A stretch of DNA of 64,000 bases, taken from Martelella sp. NC20. GTDB lineage: Bacteria > Pseudomonadota > Alphaproteobacteria > Rhizobiales > Rhizobiaceae. Within the stretch, counting starts at the first letter, position 1; every line of letters begins with the position of its first letter. The translations under genes and the position numbers were made by a program. The DNA lies in assembly GCF_013459645.1 (NCBI RefSeq), contig NZ_CP054861.1:4886001-4950000 (forward strand), written 5' to 3'. Shown here piece by piece: positions 15,529 to 48,527 of the stretch. The notes beneath the pieces are model-generated. The model saw nothing but the letters and a program-made list of their open reading frames with translations. It had not been told where the DNA came from and ran no database searches.

Positions 15529-15702
15529 GTTGACAAAGCCTGCCCTACTCACCGCCGTCATGCTCGGGCTTGTCCCGAGCATCCAAGCACGTTGCAACAC
15601 GACAAGCGTCTCGGACGAAGAGCCATTCAAATGCCGTACATTACGAAACGCCAACGCCGCTCGTGCTGAACCGTGATAGATCCTCCGGTCAAGCCCGAGG
15701 AT

Positions 15703-15726
15703 TGTTTGTTGAATGCAGGTTATGAT
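15703..15726 (+). promoter_or_regulatory. Half of a junction promoter (-10 box, with spacer) in the IS left end
   Basis: TATGAT (15721-15726) is a strong -10. In the integrated element the hexamer 17 bp upstream is AGGATT, which is poor. When the right end is joined to the left end in a circle, the bases TTGAT (16856-16860) plus T15703 become TTGATT, with exactly 17 bp to TATGAT. The predicted start, 7 nt after the -10, is 15733, the first base of the bridge-RNA hairpin. Confidence 0.75.
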
Positions 15727-15732
15727 GTTGGC

Positions 15733-15895
15733 GCAGCTGCGGGCTCTTTCACAGCCCGCAGCTGCTGTGGCAGGCGACCGTCCGAGGATTGGGCAACACC
15801 CGACGTCATCAAGGTCACTGCCGCACTCTGCCATCGCTTGGAGAGTTGATTGGGCCGCTGCCTGGCACGCCCGCAAACAATCCGAAGCCTAGAGA
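15733..15895 (+). ncRNA. Bridge RNA of the IS110-family element
   Basis: The 5' hairpin is a perfect 13-bp stem (15733-15745 with 15753-15765, loop CTTTCAC). Loop 1 is closed by GACC (15776) and GGTC (15813), with an inner GGG/CCC stem. Its left guide CCGAGGAT (15782-15789) equals the left target flank 15695-15702. Its right guide GACGTCATC (15802-15810) is the complement of the right flank 16858-16866. Loop 2 is closed by GCTT (15836) and AAGC (15885), with an inner GGGC/GCCC stem. Its left guide AGAGTTGAT (15842-15850) equals the element's right end 16852-16860. Its right guide CAAACAATC (15874-15882) is the complement of the left end 15700-15708. This is the target-loop then donor-loop order known for IS621. 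The 3' end is uncertain. Confidence 0.9.
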
Positions 15896-15908
15896 GGATA
15901 GCATCACC

Positions 15909-16859
15909 ATGACCTTTTTGCATCATCCCCCGTGCCGTTGCCTTGGCGTCGATGTCGCCAAGGACACCATCGCCGTTTTTGACGGCCGCATCGCGACGGT
16001 CATTCCCAACCAGCGAAAACAGATCCGGCACTTCCTGCGAAAGTGCGATGTCGACCTGGTCATTTGCGAGCCCACCGGCGGCTACGAGATCATCTTGATG
16101 GAAGAATGCCGGGGCCTGAAACTTCCGCTCCATCGCGCCGACACACGCAAGCTCAAGGCTTTCATCCGGTCACGCGGCCGCTTGGGCAAGAGCGATGCGA
16201 TCGATGCGCGGGAAATGGTCGCCTATGGGCTGGAGCGATGGGCAACCCTGCCTTTATGGCATGCGGAGGACCCCTGTGAGGCAAGGCTCAAGGCTCTCGT
16301 GCGCCGCCGCGCCGATCTGGTGGCCATGAGGGTGGCCGAGCAGAATCGCGCCAAGGCCCCAAGCGCGCGCGAACTGGGCGGGCGCGACCTGGCCGCCACC
16401 TTCAAGGCCCTGCTCACTGTCCTCAACCGGCAGATCGTGCTTGTCGACAAAGCCATCAGTGCGCTGATGCGCTCCGCATCCCTTGTGCAGAGGGCCAGGA
16501 CCGCAACCGCCATGAAGGGTATCGGCGAAACGACGGCCGCAGCCCTCATTGCCGCCATACCGGAACTGGGGAAGATGGACCGAAAGCAAGCAGCGGCTCT
16601 GGCGGGCCTGGCGCCTCATCCAAACGAAAGCGGCAACAAGATCGGCTACCGCAGGATGCGCGGTGGACGGCCAGCCGTGCGAACGATCCTGTTCATGCCC
16701 GCCATGCAGGCCGCACAAGGAAGGGGCGAATTCGTCGAATTCTACAAACGCCTCATCCACAACGGTAAAAAGCCAATCGTCGCCCTCGCCGCGGTCATGC
16801 GAAAGATAGTCATCACATTGAATGCAAGGTTCAGAGACCAGCTAAGCCAACAGAGTTGA
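15909..16859 (+). CDS. IS110-family recombinase (DEDD transposase)
   Basis: This 316-residue recombinase has an N-terminal RuvC-like domain with Asp15 (LGVDVAKD), Glu54 (CEPTGGYE), Asp96 and Asp99 (GKSDAIDA). A coiled segment lies around residues 110-190. The C-terminal Tnp domain has MKGIGETTAAALIAAIPELG, GLAPHPNESGNKIGYRRMRGGRPAVR and the nucleophile Ser241 in NESG. With the bridge RNA it should bind both donor and target DNA and exchange strands. ATG 15909 follows AGAGAGGA; the open frame back to 15789 runs through the RNA gene and is not used. All catalytic residues are present, so the element looks active. Confidence 0.95.
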   Translation: MTFLHHPPCRCLGVDVAKDTIAVFDGRIATVIPNQRKQIRHFLRKCDVDLVICEPTGGYEIILMEECRGLKLPLHRADTRKLKAFIRSRGRLGKSDAIDAREMVAYGLERWATLPLWHAEDPCEARLKALVRRRADLVAMRVAEQNRAKAPSARELGGRDLAATFKALLTVLNRQIVLVDKAISALMRSASLVQRARTATAMKGIGETTAAALIAAIPELGKMDRKQAAALAGLAPHPNESGNKIGYRRMRGGRPAVRTILFMPAMQAAQGRGEFVEFYKRLIHNGKKPIVALAAVMRKIVITLNARFRDQLSQQS

Positions 16860-16904
16860 TGACGTCCGTAAAAAGGGTAGTTTTGTCAACGGTCTGGAAG
16901 TGGT

Positions 16905-30282: not shown

Positions 30283-30450
30283 TTGACAAACCCGCCTGCC
30301 TATCCCGTGTCATCCTCGGGCTTGACCCGAGGATCCAGGTCGGACTGCGCGGTCTCAAAAACACCATTATGATCAATGGCTTGCGTAGCATGGATGCTCG
30401 GGTCAAGCCCGAGCATGACACCTGTGGGTAGGATCAGATAGGATCAAAAA
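30283..30450. repeat. REP-like palindromic element, copy 3
   Basis: TTGACAAA at 30283 marks the left edge. The left arm GTGTCATCCTCGGGCTTGAC is at 30307 and the right arm GGTCAAGCCCGAGCATGACA ends near 30420. The right boundary is degenerate. On the minus strand it contains CCGAGGATGAC (30309-30319), matching 11 of the 14 bases that the IS110 bridge RNA would recognise. Confidence 0.8.
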
Positions 30451-48396: not shown

Positions 48397-48421
48397 TGCT
48401 GCCTCGTGCTGCCGATTTTCT

Positions 48422-48527
48422 TGGGTCATGCTCGGGCTTGACCCGAGCATCCAGGCGACACGGAGAACGCTGCCTGGACCCTCGGGTCAAGCCCGAGGGT
48501 GACGCCCGTCGTGAAAGGTTGGTCAAC
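48422..48527. repeat. REP-like palindromic element, copy 4 (intact)
   Basis: The left arm TCATGCTCGGGCTTGACCCG at 48426 is answered by the right arm CCTCGGGTCAAGCCCGAGGG ending at 48499. The right boundary is TTGGTCAAC at 48519. The stretch 48493-48506 matches 12 of 14 bases of the IS110 target site, with one difference at the core. This copy serves as the uninterrupted reference for the disrupted copy at 15529-16890. Confidence 0.85.

Follow-up and report, generated by a model that had tools for sequence, protein, structure and literature searches.

A predicted bridge RNA in an IS110-group insertion sequence of Martelella, with target guides that insertion sites follow in related genomes

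Introduction

For IS621 of the IS110 family, the parts of the published study used here describe a bridge RNA, targets in REP elements, covariation over thousands of natural guide-target pairs and a junction promoter, and they report that non-CT cores are less effective in engineered IS621 (PMC11208160). SeekRNAs, including their natural re-direction, are also published; in the sections used here, ISEc21 and IS1111 elements have an RNA from the non-coding region that matches both target strands, lying upstream of the gene in IS110 types and downstream, with guide order reversed, in IS1111 types (PMC11187229). ISRm19 of Sinorhizobium meliloti, an IS110-family element, was noted in 2006, when the RNA was still unknown, to be associated with REP palindromes in four of four copies, according to the passage used here (PMC1525189). 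Since IS621, seekRNAs and REP-associated IS110 elements have all been published, the element that we describe belongs to a known type, the bridge RNA- or seekRNA-guided IS110 elements. A search of the open-licence literature found no paper on Martelella IS110 elements, on rhizobial IS110 bridge RNAs or on RIME1 palindromes of Rhizobium.

Here we analyze such an element in a window of 64,000 nucleotides from Martelella sp. NC20 (contig NZ_CP054861.1, positions 4,886,001 to 4,950,000); all coordinates are those of the window unless a locus is named. Compared with IS621 as described in the sections used here (PMC11208160), it shares a recombinase with DEDD residues and a serine, a left-end RNA with a 5' stem-loop and two internal loops, left target and donor guides (LTG and LDG) that match the top strand, right guides (RTG and RDG) that complement it, a core included in all four pairings, and REP-type targets; for the promoter across the joined ends of IS621, a candidate counterpart is predicted here. 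It differs in its core (AT instead of CT), in a tracked target of 6+2+4 instead of 7+2+2 nucleotides with optional extension, in host order and repeat, and in being known from sequence alone. As with ISEc21 and IS1111 seekRNAs, its predicted RNA lies in a non-coding region and matches both target strands, upstream of the gene as in IS110 types and unlike the downstream RNA and reversed guide order of IS1111 types (PMC11187229). With ISRm19, to which we liken it by description, it has in common the family, the bacterial order and the association with REP palindromes (PMC1525189).

Results

The element and its recombinase

The recombinase gene (15909..16859, + strand) encodes 316 amino acids, with an N-terminal DEDD domain (PF01548) and a C-terminal Transposase_20 domain (PF02371) that contains the conserved serine; the NCBIfam model NF033542 also scores above its cut-off. 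A search of the PDB with a profile of three relatives matched IS621 at E 9e-30, and residues D15, E54, D96, D99 and S241 align with D, E, D, D and S conserved in IS621, which we take to be its catalytic residues. The top single-sequence PDB match is the ISCro4 recombinase (PDB 9t56, E 1.6e-22), a likeness drawn by sequence match alone.

Boundaries from eight copies in the same genome and from relatives define a left-end non-coding region of 206 bp (15703..15908, +), which carries the RNA upstream of the gene. The right end (16852..16860, +), known from its sequence and from the own-genome copies, forms the left donor half and includes the AT core at 16859-16860; the recombinase stop codon falls within this donor sequence, and no non-coding stretch follows it. 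The domains with their serine, the long left end with its RNA, the short right end, the two-guide loops and the guide-target covariation are all traits of the IS110 group. The IS1111 group, with RNA and long non-coding end 3' of the gene, was ruled out by the upstream RNA and by the overlap of stop codon and right-end donor sequence. TIGR-Tas was ruled out as well, the Tas endonuclease model reaching 31.8 bits against a cut-off of 100. A search of plasmids gave two partial matches only, at 68.6% identity across 23% of the query. The element had been called rhizobial from the letters of the window, which is true at the level of the order.

A predicted bridge RNA with four guides

The predicted bridge RNA occupies 15733..15895 (+). 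Its minimum free energy is -80 kcal/mol compared to a shuffled mean of -60.5 (z -4.6). A covariance model built from nine RNAs, as the sequence-only reading had suggested, scores 180.1 bits at 15733-15891 (model R1) and finds the RNA in other hosts. On the nine relatives, a structure of 35 pairs has 98.1% of cells paired (90.5% when shuffled) and 11 pairs changed on both sides, compared to 5.2 in shuffles and 1-4 in slid controls. These changes fall in the 13-bp 5' hairpin (15733..15765, +; 6 of 12 pairs counted) and in the stem of the target-binding loop (15766..15825, +; 5 of 12 stem pairs). The stems of the donor-binding loop (15826..15895, +) are invariant in the nine relatives. The hairpin and two loops proposed earlier are all present, with compensatory changes for the hairpin and the GACC/GGTC-closed stem; the GCTT/AAGC donor stem is neither supported nor contradicted by covariation because it never varies in this set.

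At gathering threshold, Rfam has no match anywhere in the window. A second, minus-strand match to the RNA model in the window, at 15559-15765 (27.2 bits, E 1e-4), spans the repeat and the left end; a comparable minus-strand match occurs at L123, and both are perhaps a side effect of two palindromes. The model matches twice at L126 of Rhizobium rhizogenes, where ~118 bp comprising the donor half of the RNA and the first part of the recombinase gene are duplicated in tandem (about 1290-1520).

Four guide matches had been read in the two loops, and all proved exact in coordinates and letters. In the target loop, the LTG with its core (CCGAGG plus AT, CCGAGGAT, 15782..15789, +) equals the left flank at 15695-15702, and the RTG as first described (GACGTCATC, 15802-15810, +) is the reverse complement of 16858-16866; the part supported by both matches and tracking is CGTC plus core AT (15804..15809, +), which pairs with AT GACG, while 15802-15803 match in the window copy and do not track in relatives. 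In the donor loop, the LDG (AGAGTTGAT, 15842..15850, +) equals the right end at 16852-16860, and the RDG (CAAACAATC, 15874..15882, +) is the reverse complement of the left end at 15700-15708, with variants in relatives following their guides.

Could these matches be the work of chance, or of the palindromic repeat that surrounds the element? We scored 1,952 random 163-nt stretches of the window for matches of 8, 8, 9 and 8 letters to left flank, right flank, right end and left end, with flanks and left end counted from the AT core. Single ends were reached by 155, 19, 0 and 34 stretches, respectively, so the left-flank match is weak on its own, as a chance explanation would have it. At least two ends were matched by only 3 stretches, all four lengths by none, and the tracking in relatives with other guides described below was reached in 0 of 10,000 permutations. 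The earlier statement that the four matches exceed chance is thus upheld, and chance or a repeat effect has hardly any credibility left as an explanation.

Own-genome copies and the interrupted palindrome

The genome of the window holds eight copies of the element at eight sites, each with 0-2 differences from the window copy over 1,161 positions and all with open reading frames, which suggests recent movement only. In the window, the insertion interrupts an interspersed palindromic repeat (15552..15702, +; paralogues in the same genome), whose downstream arm ends with the left target half CCGAGG (15695-15700) and AT (15701-15702). Uninterrupted paralogues of the repeat retain an intact target (L010, L012-L016). 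Six of the eight copies break the downstream arm of the palindrome GATCCTCGG...CCGAG-GAT-GACG. Outside the repeats, one copy has the flank CCGGGG, and one adjoins a TctA-type frame of 441 residues extending into the junction (L007 2669-3991, - strand). The repeats are presumably those named RIME and REP.

Sites of the form CCGAGNATGAC number 125 in this genome, compared to 3 for a reversed control pattern. At position -1, all eight copies have G, as does the guide (p 0.008 relative to 55 of the 100 sites listed). Elsewhere in the window, this kind of repeat has unoccupied sites, CCGAGGATGAC or CCGAGCATGAC, at 30304-30319 (-), 30409-30424 (+) and 48420-48435 (-).

Guides and sites across the order

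The RNA was found in at least 12 of 397 genomes of the order, the own genome included, a lower bound obtained with at most seven candidates scored per genome under strict filters; a closer search of the other 11 genomes gave the same copies. From 77 RNA matches we retained 72 copies, leaving out the second matches in L123 and L126 and three more distant IS110 elements (L027, L036 and L059), whose weak matches to the RNA model were not taken as guide-site pairs. One copy without a left end (L165) and one with ends undefined by the pattern used (L043) were then dropped; a match at G437:C19 with no locus assigned stayed outside the analysis. The resulting set has 70 copies from 20 genomes with 16 distinct six-letter left guides, among them CCGAGG, CCGAGC, GCCGGG, CCCGGG, GCGAGG, CGTAGG, GCGGGG, CGGAGG, CTCGCA, ACAGGA and CACCAG.

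The sequence-only reading had offered a way to be refuted, namely related copies whose guides do not follow their own flanks. It survived this comparison, in that guides mostly follow. On average, 5.64 of 6 left positions agree between a site and its own guide, compared to 3.54 when guides are swapped among types, and none of 10,000 permutations reaches the observed sum; the permutation exchanges whole guide types because a guide is inherited by all copies of a family, though the types are themselves related, and new loci had been inspected by eye ahead of it. Perfect six-letter matches number 49 of 70 (7.5 when permuted), and at least five letters match in 66; at least one left mismatch is present in 21 copies, four of which have two. 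For 30 copies from 12 genomes outside the covariance model, the values are 5.40 versus 3.26, with 16 perfect matches versus 2.1 and again 0 of 10,000 permutations. With relatives that carry other guides mostly following their own flanks, there is strong support for reading the RNA as an IS110-group bridge RNA that has both target and donor guides.

When one mismatch is allowed, 60 of 69 copies (L167 was lost) have a palindromic partner arm upstream of their site, compared to 27.1 in simple shuffles that preserve single-base composition only. Thus, repeats are the usual target and not the sole one.

Core and target length

Position by position from -1 to -6, the left flank matches the guide in 65, 67, 66, 69, 68 and 60 of 70 copies, and at -7 in 21. 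For the right flank, the letters at +1 to +3 are identical throughout the 34 guides and sites, the +4 letter agrees with the guide in 23 of 34 right flanks (13.3 expected, p 0.01), and +5 and +6 match at chance level (6 and 9 of 34, with 6.5 and 10.1 expected). The 14-base target initially proposed is therefore too long: the supported target has 12 nt, CCGAGG-AT-GACG, from -6 to +4, since +5, +6 and -7 do not track. Its right half, GACG (16861..16864, +), is supported by the sequence, the own copies and the tracking; in the own genome, all nine RTG letters are matched by two of eight copies only, while ATGACG is present in seven and ATGACA in one.

A core of GAT had also been considered, and this was not borne out. 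At the left junction, the base that precedes AT comes from the target, whereas at the right it belongs to the element and is G in every right end seen. Many relatives have C at the left -1 position with G still at the right end, which leaves AT as the shared core. Donor and target can then be written as GAGTTG-AT-TGTTTG and CCGAGG-AT-GACG. The left junction has GT instead of AT in 3 of 70 copies. A target predicted for the window RNA is CCGAGGATGACG, and its counterpart for a guide with C at -1 would be CCGAGCATGACG.

One guide base divides the repeats of a host

A draft genome of the same genus (G008) has many element ends. Left ends of the family with guide CCGAGC have the flank CCGAGC in 6 of 6 cases, and those with guide CCGAGG have CCGAGG in 11 of 11, with flanks that are mutually different. 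Among 100 sites listed in this genome, -1 is C in 38, G in 46 and A in 16; the Fisher p for the split by guide is 8e-5. Two sister elements of G008 thus divide the host repeats between them by one guide base. At +4, the guided base is present in 4 of 6 (p 0.08) and 2 of 10 (p 0.07) right flanks of the first and second family, counts for which families were assigned by resemblance; these 16 right ends, which could not be joined to single copies, were left out of the 34 right flanks above.

In G006, a relative with 74-75% protein identity is present in 10 copies. Six have guide base C at -1; five of these are at C sites and one at a G site, which is above background (p 0.013). The four copies with guide base T (L049, L052, L053 and L056) are all at G sites, which is not above background (p 0.12) and makes a non-standard pair; CCGAGT sites are about 1 in 100 in this genome. 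Wobble pairing for the T-guide copies was considered and is not supported, all four being at G sites and not at C sites. The guided A at +4 is present in 5 of 10 copies, compared to 0.9 expected (p 9e-4).

These families also bear on whether the recombinase protein itself reads the target, with the RNA matches reflecting shared ancestry or co-inheritance. In G008 and G264, types with different guides also differ in protein (63.8-64.6% identity in G264), and within one family guide and protein are common by descent, as this explanation expects. However, the recombinases of L155 and of the G422 copies are 94.4% identical (L155 against L157), their guides are CGTAGG and CGGAGG, respectively, and the site has T at -4 for L155 but G at -4 for 5 of 5 G422 copies. 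Moreover, within the G006 family, whose DNA is 99% identical, copies with C and T guides are at C sites in 5 of 6 and 0 of 4 cases, respectively (p 0.048), the T guide being unpaired with its sites. We consider target reading by the protein very improbable and keep to guidance by the RNA.

Three of the 10 G006 copies (L054, L055 and L056) have an in-frame TAG in the recombinase gene, which raises the question of whether the window copy, too, is now inactive, an RNA-guided recombinase by descent whose guides are real relics. The eight own copies, open-framed and with 0-2 differences, suggest recent spread, yet such spread could come from one active sister. On balance, we think it unlikely that the window copy is inactive.

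The donor side

The RDG matches all seven left-end letters in 53 of 69 copies, and the left ends TTGTTTG, TTGTCTG and TTGTTCG are each paired with a corresponding donor guide. One mismatch is present in 11 copies, nine from the f11 host family along with L123 and L151. For the remaining five of the 69 (L153, L158, L166, L037 and L160), the pattern caught the wrong stretch; by eye, L158, L166 and L037 match their donor guide, L153 is like the f11 group, and six letters match in L160. The more distant relative in G027 (L043, 1320-1472) has a different left end, CCTTGCATG, that, by eye, is complementary to its own donor guide region GCATGCAAGG, and it is apparently a naturally re-aimed donor. In L125 (Rhodospirillaceae; about 2440-2510), a near-repeat, ACAGAGCTGATGACAAGC, lies 51 bp past the right end.

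A predicted junction promoter

A -10 box, TATGAT, is predicted at 15721..15726 (+). Joining the ends of the element would create a predicted -35 box, TTGATT (16856-16860 plus 15703), 17 bp from TATGAT, a spacing that we imposed, and upstream of 15733. The modelled circle has 9 of 12 promoter matches, compared to 7 of 12 in the inserted window form, where AGGATT takes the -35 slot. Across nine types, the -10 slot on the modelled circle has 3-5 of 6 consensus letters. At L124, another promoter pair scores equally.

Discussion

These results make it very probable that the window carries an intact IS110-group insertion sequence with a predicted left-end bridge RNA, which would place its circular form at the 12-nt target CCGAGG-AT-GACG, here mainly in palindromic repeats. 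Across the 70 copies from 20 genomes, landing sites follow guides, so RNA pairing is likely the means by which the element picks its insertion site. By analogy with IS621, the element would be excised as a circle, and the promoter from the joined ends would transcribe the RNA from about 15733. LTG and RTG would then pair with opposite strands of the target, LDG and RDG with opposite strands of the donor, and the recombinase would exchange strands at the AT core.

What is new here is an AT-core subfamily, a natural 6+2+4 footprint, and guide changes that follow host sites to one base. Bridge RNAs are new programmable recombination tools, and in this family sixteen natural left guides are available on one AT-core scaffold, together with perfect and mismatched natural sites and near-identical recombinases that have different guides. 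Moreover, the family reveals which guide positions track in nature, from -6 to +4, and it opens single-base discrimination to direct testing.

For a site-specific element, an abundant interspersed palindrome as main target would give access to many copies with few gene disruptions, although one of the eight own copies does lie in a tctA-type gene. Looking across the order, we lean toward the view that this clade keeps its donor machinery and has re-aimed its target guide many times at the palindromic-repeat stem of the host, with two sisters sharing one repeat family by a single guide base; the fit of guides to the commonest repeat stem of a host was judged from site counts in G000, G006 and G008. 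If such clade-wide re-aiming is true, the natural evolution of guides is visible at the level of single bases, and bridge RNAs in nature tell targets apart by one nucleotide.
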